A stretch of 64,000 nt of DNA from Verrucomicrobiia bacterium (GTDB taxonomy: Bacteria; Verrucomicrobiota; Verrucomicrobiia; JABWAM01): NCBI GenBank assembly GCA_028687435.1, contig JAQUAF010000019.1:1-64000 (forward strand), read 5' to 3'. The notes under the pieces were generated by a model, which was given only the letters and a program-made list of their open reading frames with translations, searched no databases and was not told where the DNA came from. The translations under genes and the position numbers were made by a program. Shown here piece by piece: positions 9,509-35,803 of the stretch (position 1 is its first letter; every line of letters begins with the position of its first letter).

Positions 9509-9569
9509 AAGTGGACAAACCAATCAGATACAGGGTTGTGCTGCTTTATATTGTATTTCCAGAGCCATC

Positions 9570-9745
9570 CCATAATTTTTCAGAGATTGCTCTCGCCTCG
9601 TCGAAGCCTTCGGCGCAGCACGGGTCCCTTTTTCCCAAACCTCGCAATGACCTCCAAAATGTCATTGCGAATCCCGCCACGGCGGGAGCAACAGGGGGTG
9701 AAGCCCTTCGACTTGTCGCTCAGGGTGGTGAGCGGAGTCGAACCA
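9570..9745. repeat. Dispersed palindromic repeats reaching into the IclR gene
   Basis: Three repeat modules follow each other. The first is GAGATTGCTCTCGCCTCG near 9584-9600, also found inside the tonB-like gene at 57.57 kb. The second is an inverted pair around CTCGCAATGACC and GTCATTGCGA near 9640-9670. The third, near 9700-9742, is a copy of the CTTCGACT...GAGTCGAA family. The third module covers the last codons of the IclR gene. Confidence 0.65.
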
Positions 9746-10532: not shown

Positions 10533-10599
10533 AATTTTGATGAATAAAAATTCTATTAAGATGAATATATTCCATCCCGTGAATTTGTCAAATTTTTTC

Positions 10600-10700
10600 G
10601 CCCGCCAAAAACTGGATTCCCGTTTTCACGGGAATGACGGAAAGATTGAGGACAACGGAAAACATCCGCAACTGCCTGGCCCCCCGTCATTCCCTCGGAC
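10600..10700. repeat. CTGGATTCCCG palindromic repeat
   Basis: Near 10611-10640 an inverted repeat with arms ATTCCCGT and ACGGGAAT begins with the family hallmark ACTGGATTCCCG and is followed by a partial second copy (GTCATTCCCTCGG near 10685). The same family recurs near 20925, 25625, 25680, 44450 and 44495. Together with the promoter described next it fills the 384-base gap between the divergent IclR and pectate-lyase-like genes. Confidence 0.75.
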
Positions 10701-10781
10701 ACGCATAGGCGTCAACCTATCCGGCCAAAAACAATCCGCCACACGTGTTGGGTTTTTCCTCTAAAAAATGCCCGCCGCCGG

Positions 10782-10829
10782 TTGACAATGCATGAAAACC
10801 GGACTACTTTATTCCAACTGACTGGTTGG
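10782..10829 (+). promoter_or_regulatory. Candidate promoter and operator for the polymer-degradation cluster
   Basis: TTGACA at 10782-10787 is followed after 17 bases by a weak -10 box, TACTTT, at 10805-10810. Just downstream lies an inverted repeat, CCAAC (10814-10818) and GTTGG (10825-10829) with a six-base spacer, in a position where a repressor would block initiation. The divergent IclR regulator is the natural candidate to bind it. The assignment is by eye only. Confidence 0.4.
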
Positions 10830-10916
10830 TGTTTTTGCAGCCTTGGATTCTGCATCAAACTTCAGCATTCTTGATGCAATTTGCGGGTAAAACATTCCAT
10901 CCCCTCACACTCATCC

Positions 10917-17369: not shown

Positions 17370-17387
17370 GATTTTCGAAAAACAACC

Positions 17388-19226
17388 ATGAACAACCGCT
17401 CTCCACGCTCCGCTGATCTTTCCACCCCAAAGCCCCCCTTTTCCCTGAACAGGTCTTTCACGGCCTCAACAGTCTGCCTTTTAAAGGGAAAACCATACGA
17501 AAACCCGGACCATCTCTTTTCCATTTTAAAGGATGTTCCGGAATCGGCAAAACTCGTGGTGTTGCCCCACATGCCGTTCCTCGAATGCGCCCCGGCAGGC
17601 ATGGCCAGGACGACAATCCCTTTCAAACAATTCGCGCGAAAAAGAAAAATCCACATGGCCCTGTCGCTCGTGGAACGAGCCGGCGGCGGAAAATACCACA
17701 CAGCCCTGTTGATCGACGACAAGGGCGGCATCCTGGGCGCGCAACGGAAAACCCACAGGCTGTTCAATGACGACATGAAAACCGGGGATGATTTGCCCGT
17801 GTTCGACACGAGTCTCGGAAAAATCGGCCTCACGATTGGCACGGATTTTTACTTTCCCGAGATTTACGAGGTCTTGAAAATGCGCGGGGCGGAAATCATC
17901 ACCTGGCACAGTTATCCCGAACCCTTCAGGGAACACAGCGCATGGATGCCGCTGCTTTCCGCCAGGTGCATCGACAGCCGCTGCCACTTGATCACCGCCA
18001 TGTACGCGGATGAAAAAACCTATCTGCCCAACCGTTACAAGGAAGGATGGCCGGGGTCGCCTTGGGGAAGAAGCATGGTGTTGAACCGCGTCGGAGTCCC
18101 CCTGGCGGACACCGGCTACGCGGAAGGATGCGCATCCGCCAGAATCTTTTTGGACAAACGGAAAAAAAATGTTTTTCCGGACGACCCCCGGGACGAGAAC
18201 ATTTTCATTGTCAGCTCCTATGGCGACCGGAAATCCCTGTCGCCCATCACCCGGACCCATCGCCAACTGAACGCTCCGGCCATCGCGCGCAGAAAACGCC
18301 AATGCCGGATTGCCGTGGCAACGGTTTTCCCCGAGAACGAAATAGGCAACGAAAAAATTCCGGAGGCGATCATCAACATCTTCAGGGAGGCGGAAAAAAT
18401 AAAACCCGACCTGCTGATTTTCACCGAGCAAAAGTGCAGGATCGTCAACAAAACAACCGATGATATTTTGAGAAGGATCGGGCAAACGGCCAAAAAGTTG
18501 AATTGTTACATTGCCATGGGCGGCATCACCAATTTTAATTGCACCAGCGTCTGCCACCTGTGGGACAGGAAAGGCCGTCTGGTTTACGAGCAGCCCATCT
18601 TCTGGCCTTATGAAGACCAAATCGATCTCAAGGTCTTTGACACGGACTTTGGCAGGATCGGCGCCCATACCTGCGGAGATTTATGGACCCCCCTGCTGGA
18701 CAGGATTCTTGCGCTCAAGGGGGCTGAAATCATCATTGATCCCAGCCACATGTGCGGACCGGACGGCGGCTGGAACGAAACCATGCTCCGCGCGCGAGCG
18801 ATCGACAGCTCAGCCTGGGTTGCGGTTTCCCATTCCAATTCATCCGATCCATCCCTCCGAAGCCTGATCATCGATCCTCATGGACAGGTCGTTTCCGCCT
18901 CCCAATTCAACCGGTGCGGCATCAATTATTGCGACATTCATCTGGACGACAAACGTTTTTATTATGAAGGCCTGGCAAAAAATCAGCCGTCAAATGGCGA
19001 ACTGGGAATGTCGGCCTATTTCGAGGGAACCCTTCCCCTTCAAAAGGAAGGGTGGAAAGACGCGGTCTTTTCAGCGCGCAGGCCCGAACTCTACGGCATC
19101 ATCCCCACCACCAACGAAGTCATTCTGCGGCACAGAGGCAGGGCCGGCCATGTCAAAACCATGCAAAAAAAGTCGAAAGTCATGATCAGGCCGAACCATC
19201 CCCTGTATTCCCAGCGCAAAACCTGA
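17388..19226 (+). CDS. Tandem double carbon-nitrogen hydrolase (nitrilase-like) protein
   Basis: 612 residues made of two nitrilase-superfamily domains, about 28-280 and 305-560. The Glu-Lys-Cys triad is split between them. Domain 1 keeps Lys (K121, in GAQRKTHRLF) but has His61 at the Glu position (VVLPHMPF) and Gly151 at the Cys position (GLTIGTDFYFPE). Domain 2 keeps Glu347 (LLIFTEQ) and Cys429 (GAHTCGDLW), while the usual Lys region (GRLVYEQPIFWPYE) has none. Typical members are single-domain enzymes of 260-330 residues that hydrolyse nitriles or amides. No signal peptide is seen. It follows the lyase gene by 18 bases. The first 28 codons have a partly decayed copy at 24742. Confidence 0.8.
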   Translation: MNNRSPRSADLSTPKPPFSLNRSFTASTVCLLKGKPYENPDHLFSILKDVPESAKLVVLPHMPFLECAPAGMARTTIPFKQFARKRKIHMALSLVERAGGGKYHTALLIDDKGGILGAQRKTHRLFNDDMKTGDDLPVFDTSLGKIGLTIGTDFYFPEIYEVLKMRGAEIITWHSYPEPFREHSAWMPLLSARCIDSRCHLITAMYADEKTYLPNRYKEGWPGSPWGRSMVLNRVGVPLADTGYAEGCASARIFLDKRKKNVFPDDPRDENIFIVSSYGDRKSLSPITRTHRQLNAPAIARRKRQCRIAVATVFPENEIGNEKIPEAIINIFREAEKIKPDLLIFTEQKCRIVNKTTDDILRRIGQTAKKLNCYIAMGGITNFNCTSVCHLWDRKGRLVYEQPIFWPYEDQIDLKVFDTDFGRIGAHTCGDLWTPLLDRILALKGAEIIIDPSHMCGPDGGWNETMLRARAIDSSAWVAVSHSNSSDPSLRSLIIDPHGQVVSASQFNRCGINYCDIHLDDKRFYYEGLAKNQPSNGELGMSAYFEGTLPLQKEGWKDAVFSARRPELYGIIPTTNEVILRHRGRAGHVKTMQKKSKVMIRPNHPLYSQRKT

Positions 19227-19280
19227 CATAAGGTTTTCCTTCAAATGCAAAAATAAAAATCATCAATCTAAAATCAAAAA

Positions 19281-20876
19281 ATGACCCGTCTTTACAAAAC
19301 ATTCACTTACGCGGAACTCACGGATTACCTGAAGGAAATCGAGCAAAAATATCCCAATCATGTCCGCCTGGAATCCATCGGCCAGACCGAGGGCGGCCGC
19401 CAGATCTGGCTTTGCTCCCTGGGCAACAAACAAATCCCCGACGAACGCAAAACCGGTTTTCTCATCACCGCCAACATGCATTCGGCGGAACTCTCGGGCT
19501 GTTCCTCCGCGCTTTGTTTCATGGAATATCTGCTGGCGAATCAGGCGGATCACCGTCAACTGCTGGATGAGGTGGTTTTTCATGTCGTGCCGCGGGTCAA
19601 TCCGGATGGCGCCGAGGATTACCTCAACAGCCGGAGGGACAACCGCAGCAAGCGGATCATGCTGGACCGTCCCAACGGGTTTGTGACAGGCGACGAGGAT
19701 GGCAACGGGCTGGTGCTGCAAATGCGCTGGCCGGATAAAAACGGGAAATGGAAGGAACATCCGAAAGATCCCCGTCTGATGATCGAACGGAAGCCGGAGG
19801 ACACGGACGGACCGTATTATGAGGTGGCCATGGAAGGGCATTTCGAGAATTGGGACGGCAAAACGCGGGATGTTTCCCGCCCCGGCTGCCGGAATGCCGA
19901 TTTCAACCGCAACTGGCCGGCCAACTGGCAGCCCAGCGAATGGGACGGCGGAACATCTGGCGATTATCCGCTTAGTTTTATCGAAACCAAGAGTCTGGCG
20001 GATTTCATCTTCCGGCAGCGGAATCTTTTCGCCTCATTCTCCATTCACAATGGGACCTTCGCTCTCTTCCGGGTTCCCGGATATAAAAAACCGGAGGCTT
20101 TTCCATCCTCCGACATGCGAATGATCGACAAACTGGCCAAGGAAGGGGAAAAACTCACCGGTTTCCCCGCCATGTCTTCCAGCCAATATGGCGTCAAAAA
20201 TTCCCCGCCCCATCTGATGCCCGGACTTTTCCCCGACTGGGCCTATGAATATCAGGGATTGCTGACATTTGAGATCGAAGTGGGATTTGGGTACATGTCT
20301 GCCGGCATCACGGCCGAGGAGATGTTTGCCGACCGGCCCGATCGGATGGGATACCTGAAATACAAGGTGGTGGAACATCAAAACAAGGGCGGACAAACGA
20401 TCTTCCATCCATGGAAAACCTTCCGCCATCCGCAACTGGGCGATATCGAAATCGGAGGCGAAAGCCATTTTGACTTGCAGCAAATCGAACCGAATCTGTA
20501 TCCGCAGATTGTGGAAAGCGTGCGCAGGATGGTTTTATACATGGCGGATTTGCGCCCGCGCATTGCGATTGAACTCAAAAAAAGCGATGCGGCGGAGAAT
20601 CTCCATTCAATCACGGCAACGGTTCGCAACACAGGGTATCTGGGAACCCGGATCACCGAACAATACAGTAAATTTTTTCCCCATAAAAAACCCCTGTGCC
20701 GCGCCACCTGCGGCACGGGATTGGAATTGACCGAAGGCCTGCCCTTTGAGGAAACCTGCCATATCCCCGGAAGGAGCTGTCTGGAAAAACATTATCTGGT
20801 CAGGGGACGGGGCGAATTCAAATTTGCCTTTGAAAGCGACAAGGCCGGCAAATACGAAGCCCTAATCAAAATTTAG
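19281..20876 (+). CDS. M14 zinc carboxypeptidase-like protein (copy 1)
   Basis: 531 residues. The M14 zinc site is visible: His67 and Glu70 in ITANMHSAELSG, the third ligand probably in FSIHNG (about residue 255), and a catalytic Glu in LLTFEIEVGFG (about residue 333). The N-terminal YKTFTYAELTDYL and GQTEGGRQIWLCSLGN also match the family. The C-terminal 130 residues form a beta-rich domain. M14 enzymes remove C-terminal residues or cleave amide bonds in peptidoglycan or modified peptides. With no signal peptide, it may act on imported products. The gene follows the double nitrilase and has a close paralogue at 25982. Confidence 0.85.
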   Translation: MTRLYKTFTYAELTDYLKEIEQKYPNHVRLESIGQTEGGRQIWLCSLGNKQIPDERKTGFLITANMHSAELSGCSSALCFMEYLLANQADHRQLLDEVVFHVVPRVNPDGAEDYLNSRRDNRSKRIMLDRPNGFVTGDEDGNGLVLQMRWPDKNGKWKEHPKDPRLMIERKPEDTDGPYYEVAMEGHFENWDGKTRDVSRPGCRNADFNRNWPANWQPSEWDGGTSGDYPLSFIETKSLADFIFRQRNLFASFSIHNGTFALFRVPGYKKPEAFPSSDMRMIDKLAKEGEKLTGFPAMSSSQYGVKNSPPHLMPGLFPDWAYEYQGLLTFEIEVGFGYMSAGITAEEMFADRPDRMGYLKYKVVEHQNKGGQTIFHPWKTFRHPQLGDIEIGGESHFDLQQIEPNLYPQIVESVRRMVLYMADLRPRIAIELKKSDAAENLHSITATVRNTGYLGTRITEQYSKFFPHKKPLCRATCGTGLELTEGLPFEETCHIPGRSCLEKHYLVRGRGEFKFAFESDKAGKYEALIKI

Positions 20877-20879
20877 AAC

Positions 20880-20955
20880 GATATTCGAGCCGTGCCGGAG
20901 CGCAGCGGCTCGACGCAAAGACAACTGGATTTCCGCAGTTGCGGGAATCCGGAAA
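20880..20955. repeat. GCTCGACGC and CTGGATTCCCG-type repeats
   Basis: CGGCTCGACGCAAAGACAAC at 20905-20924 is followed by a degenerate palindrome (TGGATTTCCGCAGTTGCGGG). The same pairing of a CTCGACGC stretch with a CTGGATTCCCG palindrome recurs at 25.6 kb. The ceramidase-like gene could be read from a start inside this repeat, but the ATG at 21003 beyond it is preferred. Confidence 0.6.
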
Positions 20956-21002
20956 CAATCAACAAATTCCCCTTGAGATTTCATTTTAATCACAAAAATA
21001 TA

Positions 21003-22385
21003 ATGAAAAGAAAACCCGCCAAAAATCCATCCCCCAAAATCAATACAACACGCAAGCTTCCCGGAAATATTCCCCCGCCCCCGCAAATGCAAGCCGGCTT
21101 TGCAAAGGTGTGCGTCAATCCGCCGTTGGGAATGGCCATGGAAGGGCTGGGACAGCCTGAAGGCTGCAAAACAATCCATGACGATCTGCATGTTTACGCC
21201 CTGTATTTAACCCATTCCAGCGGAACCGCGCTCATTCTTGGCGCTGATCTTCTCTTTTTTGAACGAAGCCATGTGGATCGTTTCAAAGGCGCGATTGGAC
21301 GGCGCTGGGATTTGAGTCCGCGACAGATTTTACTGAACACATCCCACAATCACGCCGGCCCGCGTCTTACTCATTGGAATTACAGCAATGGGGTGGAAAC
21401 ACACTACCTTGACCAAATCGAAGCCGCAATACTGCAGGCAGTCAAAATGTCCATCGAAAATGTCCGGGAGGTGGCTGTCTGGGGTGGAAAAACGCAAACC
21501 AAAATTCCGGTCTGCCGCCGAAAACCGGATGGAACCGGCAAAGTCAAATGGGCGCCCCATCATGACGGGGTCATTTGCGGCACGTTGCCTTTCTGTCTGC
21601 TCAAGGATCAGGGCCATCAAGTGGTATCACTGCTCTATTCTGTTTCGTGTCATCCATCCATGATTCGCGGCCTGGATATTTCAGCCGAGTATCCCGGCGC
21701 GGCAAACCGGCAACTGAACGCGCGATTTCACACGGAGGGAAGCCTGTTTCTCCAAGGCGCGGGTGGCGACGCCAAACCCCGGCAGGTTGCGATGGGCGAA
21801 GAACGCTGGCGATCCGGAACCTGGGATGAAATGGAAGAGGTTGGCATGGAAATCGCCGACGCCATTGAGGCAGCGGCCCAACACGAACTTGTTCCCATCG
21901 CGCCCGATTTAAAAACGGCCTATATGGAAACCCAATGGCCCATGCAGGATATCCCACCCCGGTCCGCCTTTGAGAGAATCCTGAATAATCCGGAAACAAA
22001 AAAAGAACAGCGTCTTTGGGCCGCCGACATCATTCAACGATTGGACCGTTTGGGGAATCTGCCTCGTCATATGCCGGTGGGCTTGCACGCGTTGCAGATT
22101 GGAAAAGGCCTGCGCTTGATCGGATTTGAGGGCGAACTGGTCGGGGAACTGGGCAATTTGATTCTCAAGTCTTACAATCAGGGCATCACCTTTCCCCTGG
22201 GGTACACGGACGGGGCCATGATCTATCTGCCGTCCTCGCGAATGATTGAGGAGGAGGGATATGAAGTTTCAAGCTACTGGGAGTATCATCATCCGGCGCC
22301 ATTGGCGGCGCAATGCGATGCGGTTGTCAAAACCGCTCTTGATCACCTGAAAAAAAACGGCCCCATTCAAAACACGCAGGATTAA
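21003..22385 (+). CDS. Neutral/alkaline ceramidase-like hydrolase
   Basis: 460 residues from the ATG at 21003. The N-terminal half matches the neutral/alkaline non-lysosomal ceramidase N-terminal domain: AGFAKVCVNPPLGMAMEG opening, ALILGADLLFF, and the zinc-binding LLNTSHNHAGP. Where true ceramidases have G-D-V-S-P with a catalytic Ser, this protein has GAGGDAKPRQ, so the Ser is missing. Many such proteins in PVC and Planctomycetes-type genomes share this variation, and their substrates are not established. It is probably an amide- or sugar-active hydrolase of the polymer-degradation cluster. No clear signal peptide is visible. Confidence 0.75.
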   Translation: MKRKPAKNPSPKINTTRKLPGNIPPPPQMQAGFAKVCVNPPLGMAMEGLGQPEGCKTIHDDLHVYALYLTHSSGTALILGADLLFFERSHVDRFKGAIGRRWDLSPRQILLNTSHNHAGPRLTHWNYSNGVETHYLDQIEAAILQAVKMSIENVREVAVWGGKTQTKIPVCRRKPDGTGKVKWAPHHDGVICGTLPFCLLKDQGHQVVSLLYSVSCHPSMIRGLDISAEYPGAANRQLNARFHTEGSLFLQGAGGDAKPRQVAMGEERWRSGTWDEMEEVGMEIADAIEAAAQHELVPIAPDLKTAYMETQWPMQDIPPRSAFERILNNPETKKEQRLWAADIIQRLDRLGNLPRHMPVGLHALQIGKGLRLIGFEGELVGELGNLILKSYNQGITFPLGYTDGAMIYLPSSRMIEEEGYEVSSYWEYHHPAPLAAQCDAVVKTALDHLKKNGPIQNTQD

Positions 22386-22408
22386 AAACAGCCGAATAAT
22401 CAAAAGCC

Positions 22409-24712
22409 ATGAAAAATACCCCTTTCACAAATCCCTCCGCCAAACTTCCGGGATGGATTTTGGCGGGTTTTGTCATGACCATCATGACTTCCGGTTGCGC
22501 ACGCAAGGAAACCCCGCGGAAAGCCGCGCATTCCGCGCCGCCACCAACAGTCAAGGAAATCAAATCCATGGACTCGGACTGGCCGGAGCAAATTCGGCGG
22601 GATCATCCGCGGCTGTTTTTCAACCGGGATACCTGGCCGGACGTCAAGGCGCGGGCATTGGGGGAAAAAGCGAATGAGTGGCAAAACTTGAAAAAACAGG
22701 CCGGCTCTCCAAAACCGGAGCGGCCATGGTCAAACATTGCCACCCTGAAACAACGCGAGGGAAGCGAAACGGCGCCGGGCGACTGGGGATATGCCGCCGC
22801 TCGGCTGGCGCTTGTCCAACGCGTCGAACCCGATGCGACAAGACTGGGAAAAATCAAGGCCATGCTTTATGCCAGCCTGGATTATTACCGGGCCTGTTAC
22901 GCGGATAACCAAGCCGCCGGCTGGTTCGGCTGGACAGGCATCTGCTGGCTGTCGGCCATGGATTGGATTTGGGATGATCTGAGCGCCCAGGAACGGACCG
23001 AACTGGGCAAGGGAATGCTGGAACATATCGACGAAATCTTAAACAAACCCAACATCCTCCGGCGAAACGCAAATGGTCCCAGCACTGGATTTTATGGGGA
23101 AAGCACCATGGCTTGGTATGCGGGATTGCTGTTTTTCAGGGAAGGAATCAATGACGAACAGGCCAAGGCGTTTCTCCTGCGGGGATACCAGGATCACCTG
23201 GAAACATTCAAATTCCGCGCCGAAATGGCCGGCAAGGATGGAGGCATGAGCACCCCCGTTCCGGGATATTGCATGGATGCCTATCCATACGCCGAATGGA
23301 ACTTTTTCCACACCTGGCAATCCGCGCTGAACGGGGATGTTTCCGGACAGTGGCTGTATCCAGCCATGTTTCCAAATTATGTATTATGGAACTGGCTGCC
23401 GGACCATCACACCTTTGGCTATGGCGATGATCATCACGAAGCCAACACCCTGGCGGGCTATAAAGACAGCCTGAATGTGCACATGTCACAAATCATCCAT
23501 TTTTACCGGAAATCCCATCCCGAATGGGCTCTAATGGCGGCCGTGGCGCAAAAAAAAACAGAGCCGTCCAATCCATGGTTTATTTTTCCGGTTTACCCGT
23601 TCATCACCATCGCCCCAAAGGAACCGCATCCTTCCCCTGCCGAGCCCAGTCTTCCTCCCTCGAGGCATTTCAAAAACTTTGGCCATGTCATCATGCGTTC
23701 CGGACAGGGGCCGGACGACACTTACGCCCTGTTTTCCTGCGGCGCAAAAAGCGGCGGCCACCGGCACTATGACAATACACATTTCACAATCTATCGGAGA
23801 GGCTTTCTGGCCCTGGACTCCGGCACCCGCGCGGGAGATACGGACAATGTGCAAAACTACTACGCGCAAACCGTGGCTCATAACTGTGTGCTGATCAAGA
23901 TGCCTGGCGAACCGCCGGTGTCCCATTGGGGGTGGGCGGCAGATGGACAGGATGGCGGCCAAAACAATAAAGTGGGAGGAAAGATTGAGGCGTTCGAAAC
24001 CGGAATCCACTATACCTATGCGGCGGGTAATGCCACCGGATCATACCATTCGCAAAAATGCGAAAAAATGCTGCGGCAGTTCATCTTCATTCCACCCTTC
24101 CATTTTGTGGTGCTGGACCGGGTAAAAACAACCAAAGCCGAATATCCCAAACGCTGGTTGTTGCACCATGCCAACGAACCGGAATTGCTGGCGGACAAGA
24201 CATGGCGAAGCGACCAATCAAAAGGCCGGATTTATTGCCGGACGCTTCTGCCCGAAGACGCCGTTCTGGAAAAAATCGGCGGCCCGGGAAAGGAATTTTT
24301 GGCAGACGGGGTCAACTATCCCATTGACGCGGGACCGAACAAATTCATCATCAAAAATAAATATGTCCTGCCTCCGGGAAAAAAACACAAGCCCGGAGAG
24401 ATGTCCGAATTATTGGGGCAATGGCGGATGGAAATAAAACCGGGGGCAGCCCGGCAGTCGGACCTTTTCCTTCATTTGATCCAGGTGGGCGATAAAAACC
24501 TGGAAAAAATGGATGCTGCCCGGCTGTCAAACAAAAACGGTCGAATCAAACTGGAGTTCGCGTCCGGAATAAAGGAAGTCGCCTTGGAATTCAATGTATC
24601 CGATGAATCCGGGGATCGCATCAAAATCACCGAGGCCGGAAAAATCCTGGCGGACAAGGAACTGGCCCGGGACGTCATGCCGCAGGAAGGGCTGGCTTCC
24701 CCGCAACCATGA
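22409..24712 (+). CDS. Heparinase II/III-like polysaccharide lyase, lipoprotein (copy 2)
   Basis: 767 residues, paralogue of the protein at 14997. Most residues are identical through the toroid (DWGYAAARLALVQRVEPD) and the C-terminal sheet domain (GHRHYDNTHFTIYRRGFLAL, YYAQTVAHNCVLI). The signal sequence ends in MTIMTSGCARKE, a good lipobox, so it should be an outer- or inner-membrane lipoprotein. Predicted activity is eliminative cleavage of an acidic polysaccharide. Differences cluster in the leader, in surface loops (KSGGHRHY against LNATHRHY) and in the linker, so the two copies may differ in specificity. It begins 23 bases after the ceramidase-like gene. Confidence 0.82.
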   Translation: MKNTPFTNPSAKLPGWILAGFVMTIMTSGCARKETPRKAAHSAPPPTVKEIKSMDSDWPEQIRRDHPRLFFNRDTWPDVKARALGEKANEWQNLKKQAGSPKPERPWSNIATLKQREGSETAPGDWGYAAARLALVQRVEPDATRLGKIKAMLYASLDYYRACYADNQAAGWFGWTGICWLSAMDWIWDDLSAQERTELGKGMLEHIDEILNKPNILRRNANGPSTGFYGESTMAWYAGLLFFREGINDEQAKAFLLRGYQDHLETFKFRAEMAGKDGGMSTPVPGYCMDAYPYAEWNFFHTWQSALNGDVSGQWLYPAMFPNYVLWNWLPDHHTFGYGDDHHEANTLAGYKDSLNVHMSQIIHFYRKSHPEWALMAAVAQKKTEPSNPWFIFPVYPFITIAPKEPHPSPAEPSLPPSRHFKNFGHVIMRSGQGPDDTYALFSCGAKSGGHRHYDNTHFTIYRRGFLALDSGTRAGDTDNVQNYYAQTVAHNCVLIKMPGEPPVSHWGWAADGQDGGQNNKVGGKIEAFETGIHYTYAAGNATGSYHSQKCEKMLRQFIFIPPFHFVVLDRVKTTKAEYPKRWLLHHANEPELLADKTWRSDQSKGRIYCRTLLPEDAVLEKIGGPGKEFLADGVNYPIDAGPNKFIIKNKYVLPPGKKHKPGEMSELLGQWRMEIKPGAARQSDLFLHLIQVGDKNLEKMDAARLSNKNGRIKLEFASGIKEVALEFNVSDESGDRIKITEAGKILADKELARDVMPQEGLASPQP

Positions 24713-24741
24713 GATTTTCTTTTGAAAAACAGCAAACAACC

Positions 24742-24828
24742 ATGAACAATCACTCTCCGCGCGCCGTTGGATTTTCCGCCGCCCCCCCTGCTTCTTTGAA
24801 CAGGTCTTTCATGGCCGCAACAGCCTGA
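24742..24828 (+). pseudogene. 28-codon remnant of the double nitrilase gene
   Basis: ATG at 24742 opens a 28-residue frame ([11 protein letters not shown]...[11 protein letters not shown]). It lines up with the first 28 residues of the nitrilase at 17388 (MNNRSPRSADL...SLNRSFTAST), and the upstream spacing after a heparinase gene is also conserved. After this point similarity stops and the pseudopilin copy 2 begins six bases downstream. It is a deletion scar of the duplicated block. It could still be translated as a leader peptide. Confidence 0.8.
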
Positions 24829-24833
24829 CTGCC

Positions 24834-25541
24834 ATGTCCATCCAACATCAAAAATCAGCCGGTTTCACACTCGTGGAGTTATTGGTCGTTCTTGGAATTT
24901 TATCCATTTTGGCCACCCTGCTCATGCCCGCTCTGAAAAACGCCAGGGAAAGCGCGAAACAGGCCGTCTGCATGAACAACCTCCGCCAGATCGGGCTGGC
25001 CCTGAACCAATATGCGGCCGACAACGAAGGCGTTGTGGTGCTTATGATGTATCATCCGGGATTCAGCCCGCCTTCTTCCGGATGGGGAAACTATCTGTAT
25101 GGAAGATATGGCCCCTCAAAATATCTCAAGGATTTGCGCATCGCCCATTGTCCATCCGGCCCCCTCACCAATGTCTCGTCAAACTCTCTGTCCATCTCAT
25201 GGACCTATGGCTGCCGCAGCAGGCCGTCCACCGACGAAAACAGCTTTGTGCCGGATGAAACTTATCATGCGAACAATACGGTTTTCGTCAATCTGGGAAA
25301 TGTTCAAAATCCCGCCGATTATCCCATGCTGGCCGATTGTGTCAAGCCGGCTGAAAACGTTCAAATCTATATCATCTACAATCCGCCTTCCGGTTCCAAC
25401 AGCGGAATTCATCTCCGCCACAATGGCGGCGCCATGGTTCTTTTCGCGGATGGGCATGTGGAACTCTGCGATTCGGCAAGGTTGAAAACCATTGGATTCA
25501 GCAAAGGTTATTCAAAACTTCAAAATCTGGTGACTTTTTAA
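24834..25541 (+). CDS. Type II secretion-like pseudopilin, H-x9-DG type (copy 2)
   Basis: 235 residues. Leader [10 protein letters not shown] precedes [19 protein letters not shown]; cleavage after Gly10 would leave Phe1 and Glu5. The helix [18 protein letters not shown] is identical to copy 1. The C-terminal motif [16 protein letters not shown] again shows H-x9-DG. The two proteins are alike over the whole length, so copy 2 arose with the lyase duplication. It sits directly behind the nitrilase remnant, and no other gene of a secretion apparatus (GspD, GspE, GspF or prepilin peptidase) is in this window. It must therefore use machinery encoded elsewhere. Confidence 0.88.
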
Positions 25542-25981
25542 AAAAACGGCGAAATAAATTAAGCCGGGCCCAAGGCCCGGCAACTGCTCGACGAAACATG
25601 CTCGATGCTCGACGCAGAAACAACTGGATTCCCGCTTTTGCGGGAATGACGATGGTGAAATAAGCATACTCCCCTTCCGTCATTCCCGCGGATGCGGGAA
25701 TCCAGAGACGGTTGAAATCTCGTTTCCATCCGAAAACTTTGAATTTCCTAAACATTAAATTAAGTCCCGCTCCCGCCGTGGCGGGACGGGACGGCTTGAC
25801 GCTCAACGCACGATCCGCCTTCGCTCTGCGAGCTATGGCGAGACAAGCACACGACGCAAAAACAATCACTCAAAGGCGGGTTACGACAGGCCGGGAGGTT
25901 CACCACGTTTCACGTGGCCGGCCCTCCACCATTTCGCAGCACCTGGACGCCCGCTTTCGCGGAATTGACAGAAATCAAAAA
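25542..25981. repeat. Repeat mosaic between pseudopilin 2 and carboxypeptidase 2
   Basis: This 440-base gap has no gene of its own; the carboxypeptidase frame is open upstream, but those codons come from repeats. Modules in order: CTCGATGCTCGACGCA near 25600, CTGGATTCCCGC...GCGGGAATGACG near 25626-25650, its inverse near 25679-25705, CTCCCGCCGTGGCGGGA near 25770, CCGCCTTCGCTCTGCGAGC...GCGAGACAAG near 25819-25848, and GGCCGGCCCTCCACCATTTCG near 25917. It is the densest repeat cluster in the window. Confidence 0.7.
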
Positions 25982-27571
25982 ATGAACCGTCTTTACAAAA
26001 CTTTCACTTACGAAGAACTGACCCATCACCTGAAGGAAACCGAAAAACGTTTTCCCGGCCATTTTCGCCTGGAATCCCTGGGCCAGACCGAGGACGGCCG
26101 CCAGATCTGGCTTTGCTCCCTGGGCAACAGGCAAATCCCCGACGAACGCAAAACCGGCTTTCTCATCACCGCCAACATGCATTCGGCGGAACTCTCGGGC
26201 TGTTCCTCCGCGCTTTGTTTCATGGAATATCTGCTGGCGAATCAGGCGGATCACCGCCAACTGCTGGATGAGGTGGTTTTTCACGTCGTGCCGCGGGTCA
26301 ATCCGGATGGCGCCGAGGATTGCATCGTCACCCGGCGGGACAACCGCAGCAAGCGAATCATGCTGGACCGTCCCAACGGTTTTGTGACGGGCGACGAGGA
26401 CGGCAACGGGCTGGTGCTGCAAATGCGCTGGCCGGATAAAAACGGAAAATGGAAGGAACATCCGAAAGATCCCCGTCTGATGATCGAACGGAAGCCGGAG
26501 GACACGGACGGACCGTATTATGAGGTGGCCATGGAAGGGCATTTCGAGAATTGGGACGGCAAAACGCGGGATTTCTCGCGCCCGGGCTGCCAGCACGCCG
26601 ATTTCAACCGCAACTGGCCGGCCAACTGGCAGCCCAGCGAATGGGATGGCAGAACGTTTGGCGATCATCCGCTCAGTTTTTTGGAGACCAAAAGCCTGGC
26701 GGATTTCATCTTCCGGCAGCGAAATATCTTTGCCTCTTTTTCAATTCACAACGGCCCCTTCGCTCTTTTCCGGGTTCCCGGCTACAAAACGCCGGATGCC
26801 TTTCCATCCGCGGACATGAGGATGTTCGACGCGCTGGCGAAGGAAGGGGAAAAACTCACCGGGTTTCCGGCAATGCCCATCAGCCAGTATGTTTACAAGG
26901 GCGCCAATCCAGTCCGATTACCGGGACACTTTCCCGACTGGGCCTATGAATATCAGGGACTGCTGACGTTTGAGATTGAACTGGGCAATGGCGAAACGTC
27001 CGCGGGCCTCTCGACAGACGAAATTTTTTCCAGATCCGCTGAAGATGTGAAATGCAAGGTGGCGGAATACCAAAACAAGTGCGGACACGTGATTTTCCAT
27101 CCTTGGAAAACCTTCCGCCATCCCCAATTGGGCGAAATTGAGATCGGGGGCGAAAGCCTTTTCGATTTATTCCAGATCGGGCAGGAACTGTATCCGCAGA
27201 TCACGGAAAGCACACGAAAGATGGTTTTATACATGGCGGATTTGCGCCCGCGCATTGCGATTGAACTCAAAAAAAGCGCCATGGCGGAGAATCTCCATTC
27301 AATCACGGCAACGGTTCGCAACACAGGGTATCTGGGAACCCGGATCACCGAACAATACAGTAAATTTTTCCCCCATAAAAAACCCCTGTGCCGCGCCACC
27401 TGCGGCAAGGGATTGGAGTTGGCCGAAGGCCTGCCCTTTGAGGAAACCTGCCATATCCCCGGAAGAAGCTATCTGGAAAAACATTATCTGGTCAGGGGAC
27501 GGGGTGAATTCAAATTTGCCTTTGAAAGCGACAAGACCGGCAAACAGGAGGCGTGTTGTCCGGTTTTATGA
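25982..27571 (+). CDS. M14 zinc carboxypeptidase-like protein (copy 2)
   Basis: 529 residues from the ATG at 25982, chosen because it aligns with the start of copy 1 and avoids repeat-derived codons upstream. Zinc ligands His67 and Glu70 (TANMHSAELSG), FSIHNG and FEIELGNG are kept. Long stretches, such as the part after MEGHFENWDGKTRDFSRPGC and the segment around LYMADLRPRIAIELKKS, are nearly identical to copy 1 at the DNA level, while the part between them has drifted more. The last residues (KQEACCPVL) differ from copy 1 (KYEALIKI) exactly where homology ends near 27552, just before the transposase region. The C-terminus was therefore replaced at a rearrangement breakpoint. Confidence 0.82.
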   Translation: MNRLYKTFTYEELTHHLKETEKRFPGHFRLESLGQTEDGRQIWLCSLGNRQIPDERKTGFLITANMHSAELSGCSSALCFMEYLLANQADHRQLLDEVVFHVVPRVNPDGAEDCIVTRRDNRSKRIMLDRPNGFVTGDEDGNGLVLQMRWPDKNGKWKEHPKDPRLMIERKPEDTDGPYYEVAMEGHFENWDGKTRDFSRPGCQHADFNRNWPANWQPSEWDGRTFGDHPLSFLETKSLADFIFRQRNIFASFSIHNGPFALFRVPGYKTPDAFPSADMRMFDALAKEGEKLTGFPAMPISQYVYKGANPVRLPGHFPDWAYEYQGLLTFEIELGNGETSAGLSTDEIFSRSAEDVKCKVAEYQNKCGHVIFHPWKTFRHPQLGEIEIGGESLFDLFQIGQELYPQITESTRKMVLYMADLRPRIAIELKKSAMAENLHSITATVRNTGYLGTRITEQYSKFFPHKKPLCRATCGKGLELAEGLPFEETCHIPGRSYLEKHYLVRGRGEFKFAFESDKTGKQEACCPVL

Positions 27572-29012: not shown

Positions 29013-29053
29013 TTGACAATCATTAAGTTATCATTTATACTAAAGTGATATTT
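29013..29053 (+). promoter_or_regulatory. Strong sigma70-like promoter of the GntR/pseudopilin gene
   Basis: TTGACA at 29013-29018 and TATACT at 29036-29041 are 17 bases apart, close to consensus. The sequence GTGATATTT at 29045-29053, right after the -10 box, recurs at 61340-61348 in the promoter of the last gene of the window. A looser inverse, TTATCATTT, overlaps the -10 region. This suggests an operator, possibly for autoregulation by the GntR protein. Confidence 0.7.
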
Positions 29054-29064: not shown

Positions 29065-30957
29065 ATGGAGCTGCAAATCCAAAAAAGCGATCCGCCGGAT
29101 GTTCAGATCGAGCGCTACTTGCGCCAACAGATCGCCCAAGGGGAACTACGCTCCAACGAACAGCTCCCCCCAACCGCAGAGTTGGTTCGGCGCTGGCATG
29201 TGAGTCGGACGGCCATTCACCGGGCCATGACGCGTCTGGTCGCGGACGGGGTTATCATCCGTAAACGGAAATGCGGAACGTTCGTCAACTCCGCCACAGC
29301 CAAAGCGAACATTGCCATATTGATCGGGCCCAGTCTCATGGACGAAACCTCGTACTTTCATCGCGCGCTTTGCAAATGCCTCCGCGCCGAAATTGTCGAA
29401 AGCGAAAATCGGCACTGGGCCTGTCGCGTTTATGACGGCTTTTACGAGTTCCAAGGCAAGCCAGGCGCCTCGGAACTCCCCCCGGATCATCCCGTGCTCA
29501 GCGATCTGCGCAATCATCCCTTCAAAGGGGTCGTTCAAGTCCTCGCCGGTCTCGACGCCATGCAGTCCGCCAAACTGGAATTCAACCTCCCCACCGTCCG
29601 GCTCGGTCCCGTTGCTCCGGGTCTGCAAGCGGACGTCCTCCTCGACTACCGCAGCTTCGGCCGAGATGCGGTGACCTCCCTAGCGCAACGCGGAATGCAC
29701 CGCATCGTCTACGTCCGCGCCATTTACAGCACCATCGACACCCAAGAAGACCTACGTGGCATTCGCGAAGCCGTCAAGCTCAACCAACTCCCGGAAGTGG
29801 AGGTCCACGGTCTGAAATCCACCACGATCCGCGGTCGCTCCATGGAACAAGCCGCATACGAAAAGACCTTGGAGCTTATCGCCAAATGGCAAGGCCGGCA
29901 TGGCTTTCCGGACGCAATCTTGATTTCCGACGATATCGCGACCAGAGGCGTGGCGCTCGCCCTCGTACAGAGCCCGAAGGCTGCCGCACGCCAACCACTC
30001 ACCCTGCTGACACTCGCGAACGAAGGCATCGAACATCACTATGGTCTGCCAGTCGAACGTTACGACTTTTCCCCCCGCCTCCTCGCGCAAACGATGCTCA
30101 AAATTCTCCACAAGCGCATGCTGGACGAACAGTTGCCCGAACTCCCCGTTCGAGTCACCAACCACCCGATCCAGCTTGGGTCCGCCACTCGAAATTTAAA
30201 AACCAATGATTCCGCCATCCCTGGCCACCCTTCGTCTTCAGCCTGCCTTCCTATGTTTCAAGCCCTTGCTCGCTTTCGGCCACTCCGCCTCAATCGCCAA
30301 GTCTCTTCCGCGATGACACTCATTGAGCTTTTGGTCGTCATGTGCCTTTTGAGCATCCTCATGTGCCTGCTAATGCCCGGACTGAAAGCCGCCAAAGAGA
30401 GCGCCAAATCCATGAACTGCCTGAACAACCTTCGCCAGCTCGGTTTGGCCGTAAGATCCTACGTTGAGGAAAACAACGGTTTTTTTCCGCCATCCTCCAT
30501 CAGCAGTCCTGTGCGCCACTGGCCGGACATTCTCGCCCCGTACGTTCAATACACCTGCGCCGCAGGGGCCTTTTACATTAAGAAAGATGTCTATTATTGC
30601 CCATCAACGGACTACAAAAAATTTTACTATTGGTACCTTACCTACGGCTACAATTATTACGGCTGCGGTTGCGCGGACAACTATGCCACGCGCCCCTGGC
30701 CGAATATTTTCATGCTCAGCCGGCCAGCGGAAATGCTGATGCTTTGCGATACTTATTCCACTTACCAACCCAATACCTCGTACAATAACGCCTATCCGGG
30801 CACCACCGGCGTTGTGGGCGGAAATGGCGTCGCCCTCGGACGTCACCTCGGCAACGTGAATATCGCTTACGTCGATGGCCATGTTGGTTGTCTGCCTCAA
30901 AACGATGTCATCAACGCGGATTCCAATGGCCCGCTTTGGAATATGAGCTACAAATAG
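29065..30957 (+). CDS. GntR-type regulator in frame with a pseudopilin (630-residue ORF)
   Basis: Residues 1-75 are a GntR winged helix (VQIERYLRQQIAQGELRSNE, then ELVRRWHVSRTAIHRAMTRL). Residues about 80-370 form a LacI/periplasmic-binding-like sensor (AKANIAILIGPSLMDETSYF, DAILISDDIATRGVALALVQ). That layout fits GntR regulators with a sugar-sensing domain. No stop codon follows. The frame runs through Ser/Pro-rich codons to Met397, then SSAMTLIELLVVMCLLSIL and a complete pseudopilin ending in the H-x9-DG motif HLGNVNIAYVDGHVG. Either the stop was lost and the two are fused, or the pseudopilin is also translated from ATG 30253. A TAA lies one frame away just after residue 376, so a single-base change could explain it. 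It probably controls the following genes. Confidence 0.75.
   Translation: MELQIQKSDPPDVQIERYLRQQIAQGELRSNEQLPPTAELVRRWHVSRTAIHRAMTRLVADGVIIRKRKCGTFVNSATAKANIAILIGPSLMDETSYFHRALCKCLRAEIVESENRHWACRVYDGFYEFQGKPGASELPPDHPVLSDLRNHPFKGVVQVLAGLDAMQSAKLEFNLPTVRLGPVAPGLQADVLLDYRSFGRDAVTSLAQRGMHRIVYVRAIYSTIDTQEDLRGIREAVKLNQLPEVEVHGLKSTTIRGRSMEQAAYEKTLELIAKWQGRHGFPDAILISDDIATRGVALALVQSPKAAARQPLTLLTLANEGIEHHYGLPVERYDFSPRLLAQTMLKILHKRMLDEQLPELPVRVTNHPIQLGSATRNLKTNDSAIPGHPSSSACLPMFQALARFRPLRLNRQVSSAMTLIELLVVMCLLSILMCLLMPGLKAAKESAKSMNCLNNLRQLGLAVRSYVEENNGFFPPSSISSPVRHWPDILAPYVQYTCAAGAFYIKKDVYYCPSTDYKKFYYWYLTYGYNYYGCGCADNYATRPWPNIFMLSRPAEMLMLCDTYSTYQPNTSYNNAYPGTTGVVGGNGVALGRHLGNVNIAYVDGHVGCLPQNDVINADSNGPLWNMSYK
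30253..30957 (+). CDS. Pseudopilin reading from an internal start (copy 3)
   Basis: If translated separately from ATG 30253, the product has 234 residues, like copies 1 and 2 (234 and 235). The leader MFQALARFRPLRLNRQVSSA has 20 residues and four Arg, a good class III leader. Cleavage after Ala would give MTLIELLVV with Glu at +5. The helix motif AKESAKSMNCLNNLRQLGL and the C-terminal H-x9-DG match the other copies. No clear Shine-Dalgarno sequence precedes it, but few genes here have one. The normal length and leader favour an originally separate gene. Confidence 0.65.
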   Translation: MFQALARFRPLRLNRQVSSAMTLIELLVVMCLLSILMCLLMPGLKAAKESAKSMNCLNNLRQLGLAVRSYVEENNGFFPPSSISSPVRHWPDILAPYVQYTCAAGAFYIKKDVYYCPSTDYKKFYYWYLTYGYNYYGCGCADNYATRPWPNIFMLSRPAEMLMLCDTYSTYQPNTSYNNAYPGTTGVVGGNGVALGRHLGNVNIAYVDGHVGCLPQNDVINADSNGPLWNMSYK

Positions 30958-30967: not shown

Positions 30968-33900
30968 ATGCCCCCAACACAAACGCTCCCGCTCAATCGG
31001 CTTCGGCTCTTCGCGATCGCCGTCATTCTCAGCTGGGCCATCCCTCACGTCCTACAGGCCGCCGAGAGTCAAAAATGCCAGATCCAACAGACGGACAACG
31101 GGTGCGTGCTCGAAAACGCCTTCGTAAAAGTCACGGTCAATCGTTTGAAAGGAGGGCGAATCACCTCGCTGATCCACACTGCCAGTGGCAAGGAATTCAC
31201 GGCCGATCTCCCCGTGGGGGGCGCGTTCAAAGACATGATTTTAAAGCGCGGCTTCGACGCGGAATTCTGGGAAACTTCTTACGAGCTCAATATCAAGCAA
31301 AACACGCCCGAACGCGCATCCGTTGAGTTGAGCGCCGCGACTCCCAAGCTTCCCTTTTTAAAGCTAACCAAAACTTATTCCCTCTCAAAAGATCGAAGCG
31401 ACCTGGCCGTGGCCTACCAAATCGACAATCTCCCTGCCGCGATGGTCGCCACCCCCATTACCTTCCGTAATCATAATTACCTCAAGGTCAACGGCGAAAA
31501 GAACCTTTATTTTTACCCCTATAACCAAGGAACTCAGACAGTCAAGGAAGGCGACGGCCTTCAGGCCTGGCATCGCAATCTGGTTCGAAGCTGGGCCGCC
31601 TTCGTGGGCGAAAAAAGCCGAGTTGGCTTGGCCTGCAACCTTGATTACCCTTATCTGGATTGCTTTTATAACTGGTTCGGACAAGAGATTAATCTCGAAT
31701 GGTTCTTCCGAACCGTAAAAGTCGAAGCGGGCGACTCCTTTAAAACCCGGATCGACCTGGTCCCCTTCCGAGAGATCGGTGCGATTGACGGCGCGAAAGC
31801 GGGTTTCGTGGCCGGCTTCAACGGATTGAAAGAGCGCTACGCCCGAGGTGAAGAAATCGCGTTTTCACTGGATTTGGCCAGCGCCCGAACAGCCAACATC
31901 GATCTGGAAGTGGACTCCTGCGCGTTGCCATCCGACACTTATGCGCCCGTCGAACGCAAATCCGCCAACCTCAAACCGGATTCGACCAACCACTGGAACT
32001 TGAAACTGAAACCGTCCGCCGAAGGAACACTCGTCCTGCGCTGTCGCCTTCGGGAAGAAGGCAAGGACCTTCTGACGCTTCAGCGGCCCGTGGTCGTCGG
32101 AAAAGCGAGCGGAACATTCGTTCAATTGCCCGCGGAAGCCAAATCGCCCCTCGTGGAGAACGCCCTGAAAGCTCCGGTGCTCACGCGCCAAATCGAAACG
32201 CCGCACATTCCGTGGGCGCGCCCGTGGTACCAGGGACGAGGGCGCGTTTTATTCATCGCCAACCAATATGTTGGACGGGAAATCATCGAACTCGCCCAAC
32301 GCTTGGACATGGATTTCGAAACAGCTTTGCTGGACACCACAGGCGGGTACGGAACAGCGCGCTATTATCTTAACCTCTCCTTGACCGACTGCAACCAGTG
32401 GCTGAAGGAACTGTTAAAGAAGGAATACGACACACTCGTGATTGCGGGAAGCCAGTGGCCCCTCATCGACGAAACGAATCGGAACCGGATCATTGAGAAA
32501 GTAAAACAAGGCACCGGCCTCGTCATGATCTGTCCAACCGAAGATCCCGCCTGGCAAGGCATTCTTCCCCTTCAACTCACCGCCAAAGCAAACTGGACAG
32601 TCGGCAAGACCAAAAGGGAAAAAACGCACTATATTGTGGACGGAATTCCGTGGGAAACCCTTCCAGCGATTCCAGTCATGGAGGCCAAAGCCGCGCCTGC
32701 GGAGACCCTCTTGACGGTCGGAGGACGCCCGGTGCTGACCTGCCGCCAGGACGAAAAGAACCGCCGCGTCGTGGCATTGAACTACAATTCGAAATGTCTG
32801 ACTCCCATTCCAAATAACTGTTTCGAAGTCTCGTTCGGACCCCAAGGATCTTACCCATCTTGGGAATATTTTCACGCCCTGCTTGCCAAAGCGATCCTCT
32901 GGACCTCCCATAAGGAGGGCGACCTGGGACTCGTTCTCGAACCAGGTCCCACGGGGGTGGCGCTCTCGATTCGGACGCCTGCGGAAACCGGTGAATTCGA
33001 AGTGGATTGGGATTTCCGCGATAGTCAAAACCGGCCGATCGAAAAAAGCCGCCGCAGTTTCCGATATCGGAAGGAACAGCCGCTCGCGGTTCTGCCCTTC
33101 CCGCCCGATCTGCCAAGGGGAGTTTCCCATCTCAATCTGCGGATCCTGGAAAAGGGAAAAGTGAGGAATTTCGGCGCTTGCCCCATTCAAAAAGAAACTC
33201 CCGTCAAAATTTCCCTGGAACCCTGTACGCTTGAGAAGCAAGGGAACCTGGCCAAAGTAAGCGGCAAGCTCATATTCGAAGCCGCCCCACCACTCGGAGC
33301 TTCGCTTCTTATCGAGATCGCCGACGCCCACCAACGAATTGTTTCCAAACGCGAAATGGAAACGACGGCGTCCGAAAAGGCCTATCCTTTCGAGATGGCC
33401 TTTCTCCCTTTGACGCGGAGTCACTCCCTGCGAGCCGAGGCCCGATCGAAAAATACTCGTCTAGGGGAAGCGTGCCAACGGTTCTGCTTCAAGATTGGAC
33501 GCGCCACATTCGACGATTTCCATGAGGCACTCGTTCAATTGCCGGGTTTCATGACCTCCCAGCCCCCCTATCTGCAGGATCTCTTTTGGAACGAAATCGT
33601 GAAACACGGATTTCGAACCGTTGATCTATGGAACACGGGCAAAACAGGCGCCGCGTATTCGAGCCGCTTCGGCTTAGAAGTCGCGGAGCACAACCTTGCC
33701 CCGCTCTTTATCGGCGAAAAATGGTTTAATGATAATGCCAAATCCTATGCCGTACAGAAAGACCTGCAATATCTCATCCGAAGACCTTGCCTAAATGACC
33801 CTGCTTATCTTGAAGAAGGCAAGAAAAGGATCGAACAGTTGGTTGCCGCCGTTCGCGATTTCGAGCCGAAGGATTATATTTTTGGGGATGAAAACTCGCT

Positions 33901-35803
33901 AACCCTTTGGACAGCCGCCTTCGATTTTTGCTTTTGTCCGCATTGCCTTCGCGGATTTCGGACGTTCCTGAAAGCCCAGTACGGAAACATCGAGCAACTC
34001 AATACGGCCTACCAAAGTCAGCACAAAACATTCGACGAAGTGGTGCCATTGACAGCGCAGCAAGCCAAAGAAAGACGCAGCTTCGCTCCGTGGATGGACC
34101 ATCGTCGATTCATGGAACATACCCTCGCCAAATTCTACACCGACAAAAAAAACTTGATCCAACAACTCGATCCCGGCGCACGCGTGGGAATCTCCGGGAC
34201 GCAGCTTCCGACCGCCTTTAATGGCATGAACTGGGAACTCGTGATAGGCGCCCTGGCCGACGATGGCGTTTTTCTTTCCTATAACGGCCCTAAAGAATAC
34301 CTCCGATCATTTTCAACAAGCAAGACCCATTTCGCGCCGTGGGTCGGGTATGCGAACACAGGTCCGCAAGTTGGCTACTGGCAGTGGTGGAACGCCCTCG
34401 CCTATCGCGGGGGTGGATACACCTATTTTACCCAAAGCATGGTTCTGAATGAAGATTTTACCCCAAGCCAACAACTCCAGGACCTCTTGAACTCCAGCCA
34501 AGATCTCCGAAATGGGGTTGGAAAACTGCTAGGCGCCGCAGAACAACTTCACGACGGCATTGCTCTGCTCTACTCTCAAAACAGTCTCCGCCTCGCAACA
34601 ATTCTGGATGAGGAGGCGCGTTATACTCGCGATCATGAGGGCTGGTGCGAATTACTGAACGAAGCGGGCCGCCAGTGGAATTATGTCCGGCCGGCCAACT
34701 TAAAAACACTTAGCGAGCAGGGCTACCGCATGCTCATCCTCTCTTGTTGCCTCTCCCTTTCCCAAGGCGAAATTGGCTTGCTTCGCGAGTTCGTGGCCAA
34801 AGGCGGCGTCGTAATCGCGGATATGCTGACGGGGCTATTCGACGATCATGGCGTGCCGTACAAAGAAGAAATGTTGGCGGACCTTTTCGGGCTGCGCAGG
34901 CCTTCTGGGAAAACGTACCTGGATAACAAACCCCTGCCCTTCAAGGCCAAGCTCAAGCGTGAGCAATGGCTGGAAGGCACTGGCCCAAACGCGCAGCCCT
35001 GGAGCATCCCCATCACCGTCACCGAAAACGCCACGCCTGAAAACGGCGGGAAAGCCGTCAAAGCGTTTGGTCGAAATGTCTTCTTCAGCCGATCCTTGGG
35101 CAAGGGAAAGGGCGTTTTCCTGAATTTCGGGATGGAGAGTTACCCCGATCAGCGACGCGAGGGTTCGCGCAATCAATGCTACTTAGGTTTCGCCCGGGAT
35201 CTCTTCGAGCAGACCGGCGTTCCGCGCCTGGTTTCGCCCGCGCTTCGCCAAAAAGATGGCGCGCCCGCCCAACACTGCAGGATTTTCTCCTATCGCACCG
35301 CGCCGGACGCGCGCTACTACGGCGTGCTGCGCGACTTCAAATGCCCAATTCCCGAGAAAGAGCAAACCGTAGAAGTAGTTTTCGGGGAAAAACGCCATCT
35401 CTATGACGTTCGCAAAAAGCAATATCTCGGATTGCGCGACCGAACCGAAGTTAGCCTGGCCGAATGTGAAGCCGCCTTGCTGGCGGCCTTACCTTACGAA
35501 ATAAAGGGGCTTGCCCTGAAACCGAATAACGCCGAGCTGCGCCCCGCCGAGTTGGTGTCCTGCACGATCACCGTTCAGGCTAAGACGGGCACTCCCACCC
35601 CGCACGTCGTCCGCCTCGAGGTCTTCAATCCCAAAGGTAAACTCGTCAACTGCTACGGGAAAAATATCTTGGTTCCGGCCGAAGGCGCCTCGCATTCCTT
35701 TCCGCTAGCCTGGAATGATCCGGTTGGGAAATGGACCATCAAAGCCACGGACATAATCAGCGGCCGCGAGGCGACGACCGAATTCAAACTTCATCACCCC
35801 TGA
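30968..35803 (+). CDS. Large secreted GH42-like multidomain protein
   Basis: 1611 residues with an N-terminal signal segment (LRLFAIAVILSWAIPHVLQA). Order of domains: a beta-supersandwich like those of mutarotase folds (about 45-290), an amidotransferase-like domain (about 410-560, around RVLFIANQYVGREIIELAQR), beta-sandwich linkers (to about 830), a TIM barrel (about 860-1180), and a trimerisation-like domain (about 1220-1330, MLILSCCLSLSQGEIGLLRE). In the barrel, IFGDENSLTLW puts a candidate acid/base at E975, followed by a CFCPHCLRGFRTFLK zinc-knuckle-like segment. Both recur in the gene at 61462 (GDECSF; E576). It is probably a glycosidase on a complex glycan, but far longer than the usual 650-800-residue GH42 enzyme. 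It starts 10 bases after the GntR/pseudopilin frame. Confidence 0.7.
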   Translation: MPPTQTLPLNRLRLFAIAVILSWAIPHVLQAAESQKCQIQQTDNGCVLENAFVKVTVNRLKGGRITSLIHTASGKEFTADLPVGGAFKDMILKRGFDAEFWETSYELNIKQNTPERASVELSAATPKLPFLKLTKTYSLSKDRSDLAVAYQIDNLPAAMVATPITFRNHNYLKVNGEKNLYFYPYNQGTQTVKEGDGLQAWHRNLVRSWAAFVGEKSRVGLACNLDYPYLDCFYNWFGQEINLEWFFRTVKVEAGDSFKTRIDLVPFREIGAIDGAKAGFVAGFNGLKERYARGEEIAFSLDLASARTANIDLEVDSCALPSDTYAPVERKSANLKPDSTNHWNLKLKPSAEGTLVLRCRLREEGKDLLTLQRPVVVGKASGTFVQLPAEAKSPLVENALKAPVLTRQIETPHIPWARPWYQGRGRVLFIANQYVGREIIELAQRLDMDFETALLDTTGGYGTARYYLNLSLTDCNQWLKELLKKEYDTLVIAGSQWPLIDETNRNRIIEKVKQGTGLVMICPTEDPAWQGILPLQLTAKANWTVGKTKREKTHYIVDGIPWETLPAIPVMEAKAAPAETLLTVGGRPVLTCRQDEKNRRVVALNYNSKCLTPIPNNCFEVSFGPQGSYPSWEYFHALLAKAILWTSHKEGDLGLVLEPGPTGVALSIRTPAETGEFEVDWDFRDSQNRPIEKSRRSFRYRKEQPLAVLPFPPDLPRGVSHLNLRILEKGKVRNFGACPIQKETPVKISLEPCTLEKQGNLAKVSGKLIFEAAPPLGASLLIEIADAHQRIVSKREMETTASEKAYPFEMAFLPLTRSHSLRAEARSKNTRLGEACQRFCFKIGRATFDDFHEALVQLPGFMTSQPPYLQDLFWNEIVKHGFRTVDLWNTGKTGAAYSSRFGLEVAEHNLAPLFIGEKWFNDNAKSYAVQKDLQYLIRRPCLNDPAYLEEGKKRIEQLVAAVRDFEPKDYIFGDENSLTLWTAAFDFCFCPHCLRGFRTFLKAQYGNIEQLNTAYQSQHKTFDEVVPLTAQQAKERRSFAPWMDHRRFMEHTLAKFYTDKKNLIQQLDPGARVGISGTQLPTAFNGMNWELVIGALADDGVFLSYNGPKEYLRSFSTSKTHFAPWVGYANTGPQVGYWQWWNALAYRGGGYTYFTQSMVLNEDFTPSQQLQDLLNSSQDLRNGVGKLLGAAEQLHDGIALLYSQNSLRLATILDEEARYTRDHEGWCELLNEAGRQWNYVRPANLKTLSEQGYRMLILSCCLSLSQGEIGLLREFVAKGGVVIADMLTGLFDDHGVPYKEEMLADLFGLRRPSGKTYLDNKPLPFKAKLKREQWLEGTGPNAQPWSIPITVTENATPENGGKAVKAFGRNVFFSRSLGKGKGVFLNFGMESYPDQRREGSRNQCYLGFARDLFEQTGVPRLVSPALRQKDGAPAQHCRIFSYRTAPDARYYGVLRDFKCPIPEKEQTVEVVFGEKRHLYDVRKKQYLGLRDRTEVSLAECEAALLAALPYEIKGLALKPNNAELRPAELVSCTITVQAKTGTPTPHVVRLEVFNPKGKLVNCYGKNILVPAEGASHSFPLAWNDPVGKWTIKATDIISGREATTEFKLHHP

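Follow-up and report, generated by a model that had tools for sequence, protein, structure and literature searches.

A GntR-type regulator and a DUF1559 pseudopilin in one open reading frame, and recurrent regulator–pseudopilin fusions in Verrucomicrobiota

CadC, ToxR and TcpP are membrane-tethered one-component regulators, with a cytoplasmic DNA-binding domain, a single membrane helix and a periplasmic domain. GntR regulators with a LacI-type sensor, such as Bacillus subtilis AraR, combine a winged helix with a LacI/CcpA-like sensor, and the known members end after the sensor. Prepilins carry a cytoplasmic leader of variable length, which prepilin peptidase removes on the cytoplasmic side, very close to the membrane, behind a −1 residue that is invariably Gly or Ala (PMC10191384). 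Even the long leaders of type 4b and Streptococcus sanguinis pilins are short peptides without a known independent function (PMC10191384), and those of the DUF1559/H-x9-DG pseudopilins of Planctomycetes–Verrucomicrobia relatives span roughly 10–60 residues. A gene in the 64,000-nucleotide stretch of a Verrucomicrobiia bacterium genome analysed here (the window) combines features of all these systems. Its product has the winged helix and sensor of an AraR-type regulator but continues into a pseudopilin; the pseudopilin shows the leader, Ala or Gly at −1, Glu at +5, long helix and H-x9-DG motif of its DUF1559 relatives, but its leader is a complete transcription factor. The predicted order of domains matches that of CadC, ToxR and TcpP, whereas here a prepilin with a peptidase site forms the membrane part and the sensor is cytoplasmic. 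The earlier note on this DNA knew of no precedent for activation of a regulator through release by prepilin peptidase, and the papers we searched hold none for regulator–pilin fusions.

The fused gene (positions 29065–30957, + strand) runs from ATG to TAG as one open frame of 630 codons. As the earlier note described, the regulator frame passes without a stop into a full pseudopilin with its leader, Ala416/Met417 and H-x9-DG motif. Residues 14–74 (29104–29286) form a GntR winged helix-turn-helix (Pfam PF00392, 1.4e-15; 57.1 bits against a curated cut-off of 27). Residues 81–366 (29305–30162) have no Pfam match, and a LacI/CcpA-like ligand sensor is recognised here by predicted fold: in a Foldseek search of the PDB with an AlphaFold2 model, the best solved matches of the part behind the helix-turn-helix are the CcpA, Cra and LacI sensors (E-values down to 3e-12; TM-score, by target, about 0.7). 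By sequence, the AraR DNA-binding domain matches weakly, and by fold the LacI-family sensors match best; in other regulator–pilin fusions the sensor is matched by Pfam as Peripla_BP_3. The model of the 630-residue product has a mean pLDDT of 80 and a regulator folded to residue 366. It is followed by a linker (residues 371–415; 30175–30309) that is modelled as disordered (pLDDT below 50), lacks coding periodicity and resembles former intergenic sequence. The linkers of the fusions as a group likewise give no codon periodicity signal, as expected of recent read-through.

The pilin half has the elements of a class III signal, namely Ala or Gly at −1, a hydrophobic stretch and Glu at +5. The predicted prepilin peptidase site, Ala416/Met417, lies at 30310–30315 and the hydrophobic N-terminal segment and long helix at 30313–30471, with Glu421 at +5. 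In the model the helix covers residues 419–469 (51 residues) and leads into the pilin head. NCBIfam pilin models match the leader region (residues 415–475; TIGR02532 at 20.2 bits against a cut-off of 16.3), DUF1559 (PF07596) is found at residues 442–485 (1.2e-7), and the H-x9-DG motif, from H594 to D604-G605 (30844–30879), is intact. Taken with the model, the sequence order thus predicts a DNA-binding part, a membrane helix and a periplasmic-type domain in a single protein.

A damaged gene pair, or an assembly or sequencing error that removed a stop, could yield such a frame, and the window genome is indeed a fragmented assembly (5.97 Mb in 154 contigs). Against this, both halves of the gene are complete and match their families well, and a near-consensus sigma-70-like operon promoter (TTGACA-17-TATACT, 11/12 consensus; 29013–29041, + strand) stands before it. 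The window gene is also one of a series. Each regulator/pilin neighbourhood was classified from the DNA around regulator and pilin matches, and this gave 18 in-frame fusions in four genomes, a minimum, as are the genome-wide counts, since both come from matches above thresholds and among the matches listed. Eight are in the window genome, eight in a second genus (G001), one in a third genus of the family (G002) and one elsewhere in the phylum. By the same homology search the window genome holds at least about 45 related GntR regulators and more than 120 pseudopilins.

The regulators so fused are of LacI type, GntR with LacI-like sensors, GntR-FCD and GntR with a solute-binding domain. The window genome contributes four GntR fusions of the window type (C129, C152, C121, C74), one other GntR fusion (C77) and three LacI fusions (C27, C89, C39). 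The second genus has two LacI fusions (L197, L201), four GntR fusions with LacI-type sensors (L198, L199, L200, L202), one GntR-FCD fusion (L207) and one GntR fusion with a solute-binding domain (L205); the third genus has a LacI fusion (L210). The GntR-like fusion from another class of the phylum (G550) has lost its N-terminal part to a contig end. L205 (2802–4943) is a 714-residue frame in which a GntR helix-turn-helix, an extracellular-type solute-binding domain and a pseudopilin follow one another, and L207 (1600–3009; 470 residues) joins a FadR-type GntR-FCD regulator to a pseudopilin with Ser at −1.

Other GntR–pseudopilin frames, which the earlier note had proposed to look for, are among the 17 further fusions. 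These cannot all be errors, and with seven more fusions of the same layout in the window genome and eight in the second genus, chance alone is no explanation. Chance in-frame read-through into a pilin does also occur: on contig C46 a 672-residue open frame (L078, 3068–5083) leads from a transposase-like frame into a complete pseudopilin with no stop. That frame, and the C77 fusion, whose pilin has lost its end, speak for decay or error, which at the window locus we nevertheless hold to be very improbable. The gene probably encodes a real protein, since the same kind of join arose many separate times in the family. The earlier suggestion that a stop was merely lost is partly right, as the mutational route, while an isolated accident or error is unlikely given 17 further fusions with unrelated regulators and pilins.

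Fused genes are scattered on both trees. Among 54 regulators, 7 of them fused, the tree needs 6 changes (mean 6.7 with shuffled labels), and among 159 pilins, 17 of them fused, it needs 17; many branches are weakly supported, and the starred branches alone force only 5 changes in the regulator tree and 4 in the pilin tree. This scatter means that fusion was repeated, or that pilin bodies were exchanged behind regulators. Two regulators of the second genus are 55% identical, while their pilins are only 35% identical and each has other pilins as best matches. A single ancestral fusion followed by duplication was considered and rejected, because neither tree groups the fused genes together and the pilins behind sister regulators differ. 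No orthologue of the window locus was found. In the closest regulator–pilin match of the second genus, 37% identical over both halves, regulator and pilin gene share a frame and are separated by two stops. The earlier note's view that a regulator and a pseudopilin travel together needs correcting, since the two regulators closest to that of the window, on contigs C154 and C71 (46–51% identity), lack a downstream pilin.

Among 26 close split pairs, 7 overlap as ATGA, and in 12 more the pilin ATG lies within 25 bases of the regulator stop. These overlaps and short spacings indicate that the unfused regulator and pilin genes are probably translationally coupled, as a tightly linked two-gene operon. 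With the fused genes included, regulator and pilin share a frame in 12 of 34 close pairs, a chance-like proportion of about one third. The stop is missing in 8 of the 12 in-frame pairs and in 0 of 22 out-of-frame pairs (p = 3e-5), a contrast that we do not take as proof of selection, because the stretch ahead of a pilin leader is open in frame by necessity and because, by our own estimate, neutral stop loss with about 20 codons that have to be open would be expected in roughly a third. The frame data thus speak against selection to hold the two genes separate and are no proof of selection for fusion. Outside the family, where the best three or four places were scored per genome, nearly all in-frame LacI–pilin and GntR–pilin pairs among the matches listed keep at least one stop.

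Several other features of these junctions were recorded. In the second genus, similar 'HHSIIPS'-like strings are encoded just ahead of several pilin leaders (L041, L212, L213), which suggests that intergenic repeats are dispersed over such regulator/pilin junctions and might favour in-frame joins. On contig C115 a group II intron (RF00029; L098, 2926–3022) lies between a GntR regulator and a pilin, just upstream of the leader, and on contig C100 (L086) another pilin is preceded by an almost identical stretch, suggesting that the element inserts at conserved leader DNA. On contig C134 (L069, bases 3500–11200) two overlapping frames in front of a pilin together make up a broken GntR regulator from this family, possibly a decaying pair or a frameshift. 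Stop-codon recoding was rejected as an account of the fusions: the fused frames have no stops, and split pairs of the same genome end in TAA or TGA.

The fusions could reflect translational economy only, in which the stop was lost neutrally, both parts still work, and the window pilin is made also or mainly from an internal start. The chance-like in-frame share fits this reading, as does the resemblance of the linkers to former spacer. At the window junction the sole in-frame ATG between sensor and pilin leader is at residue 397 (30253–30255, + strand); it has no Shine-Dalgarno match, which is also true of several pilins in split pairs, and separate synthesis of the pilin from it is possible. 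Neither a promoter-like site (+ strand) nor a terminator-like site is present at the junction. An ATG is present in all split pairs, as it must be, but it is absent between regulator end and pilin leader in 12 of the 18 fusions, the window gene being among the 6 that have one (in L205 and L207, where the domain end was not modelled, a fixed stretch of 60 residues before the leader was scanned). In three fusions (C27, L198, L199) this interval has no ATG, GTG or TTG at all. At the 12 loci without ATG the pilin could hardly be made outside the long protein, as its separate synthesis would have to begin at a less common start codon. An in-frame stop has been regained at none of the 18 loci, against nearly all of the listed in-frame pairs outside the family that keep theirs. 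On balance we regard economy alone as unlikely.

We prefer, at slightly better than an even chance, to read the product as a polyprotein in which the regulator is a leader of about 416 residues, freed as the pilin matures. Two normally translationally coupled genes, for a sugar-responsive regulator and a pseudopilin, would thereby give one polypeptide. If expressed, the long protein would insert like any prepilin, with the regulator remaining cytoplasmic as a very large leader, the hydrophobic helix entering the inner membrane and the pilin head facing the periplasm. Prepilin peptidase would then cut after Ala416 on the cytoplasmic side, yielding soluble regulator and mature pseudopilin one to one. 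The known topology of prepilins agrees: as leader and cutting are both cytoplasmic (PMC10191384), a regulator ahead of a prepilin stays in its own compartment and can be released by the peptidase, and the cut at Ala416/Met417 that the earlier note had envisaged falls at a predicted site. The linker, modelled as disordered, would be within reach of the protease.

Conservation of the signal points the same way. Of 17 fusions, 15 have Ala or Gly at −1 and two have Ser, compared with Ala or Gly in 125 of 129 unfused pilins, and +5 is Glu in all 17 and all 129. The window genome encodes one detected prepilin peptidase (contig C149), its gene intact, with the CxxC pairs (methylase cysteines), the first, early catalytic Asp and GFGD, alongside many ATPases of type II secretion and type IV pilus systems. 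Weighing against a polyprotein are the known leaders, far shorter than a folded 40-kDa regulator, which the peptidase and the Sec/SRP route might not accept, the two fusions with Ser at −1, the ATG kept at residue 397 in the window gene and the linkers' lack of codon periodicity.

The same topology, with a cytoplasmic DNA-binding domain, one membrane helix and a periplasmic domain in the model, would suit a membrane-tethered regulator. The long protein would then stay whole or be cut on a signal only, its periplasmic pilin head would report extracellular polysaccharide, and the DNA-binding part would act at the membrane or after release, as in CadC or ToxR. Recurrence of the fusions across many regulator types accords with this, and Ser at −1 in two of them might slow cutting. 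But the cleavage site is kept in the other 15, the regulator half already has its own cytoplasmic sugar sensor, and the same genome also has unfused pairs, whose two proteins work separately. For tethered sensing with regulated release we found no positive evidence, and none supports the activation route by peptidase release that the earlier note had raised. Since processing by prepilin peptidase is generally seen as constitutive, simple separation of the two products is more likely than regulated release. We judge a tethered regulator to be distinctly unlikely.

In the polyprotein reading the freed regulator would probably control polysaccharide genes nearby as well as its own operon, and the pilin would probably serve secretion or capture of that polysaccharide substrate; an inverted-repeat search found no clear operator. 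The next gene (30968–35803, + strand), 11 bases downstream of the fused gene and likely in the same operon, encodes a large secreted-looking protein with a GH42-like domain. In the window, pilin genes have two heparinase-like lyases, a pectate-lyase-like protein and GH42-like proteins as neighbours, which is consistent with a role in polysaccharide utilisation. The window also contains a duplicated block (14934–27571) with similar heparinase-like proteins (14934–17369 and 22409–24712), very similar M14 carboxypeptidases (19281–20876 and 25712–27571) and a pseudopilin (24726–25538). The best lead to the role of the pilins comes from another organism: in the verrucomicrobial isolate Verruconatronum alginivorum, few proteins are induced on alginate, one of them a pseudopilin, and a PulG-like pseudopilin of its alginate cluster has 67 homologues (PMC13274419).

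If the polyprotein reading is right, these bacteria use prepilin peptidase to split a polyprotein whose leader is a whole transcription factor, and the large pseudopilin sets, with more than 120 copies here, would be tied directly to sugar regulation. A further step, a class of regulators in which assembly of a substrate-specific pseudopilin is coupled to release of the regulator for the matching polysaccharide genes, is improbable for now; should the peptidase step couple the two, assembly of a secretion filament would report directly to transcription. The vague role of DUF1559 pseudopilins becomes testable: many have a regulator of their own as partner, and some are joined to it in one chain.
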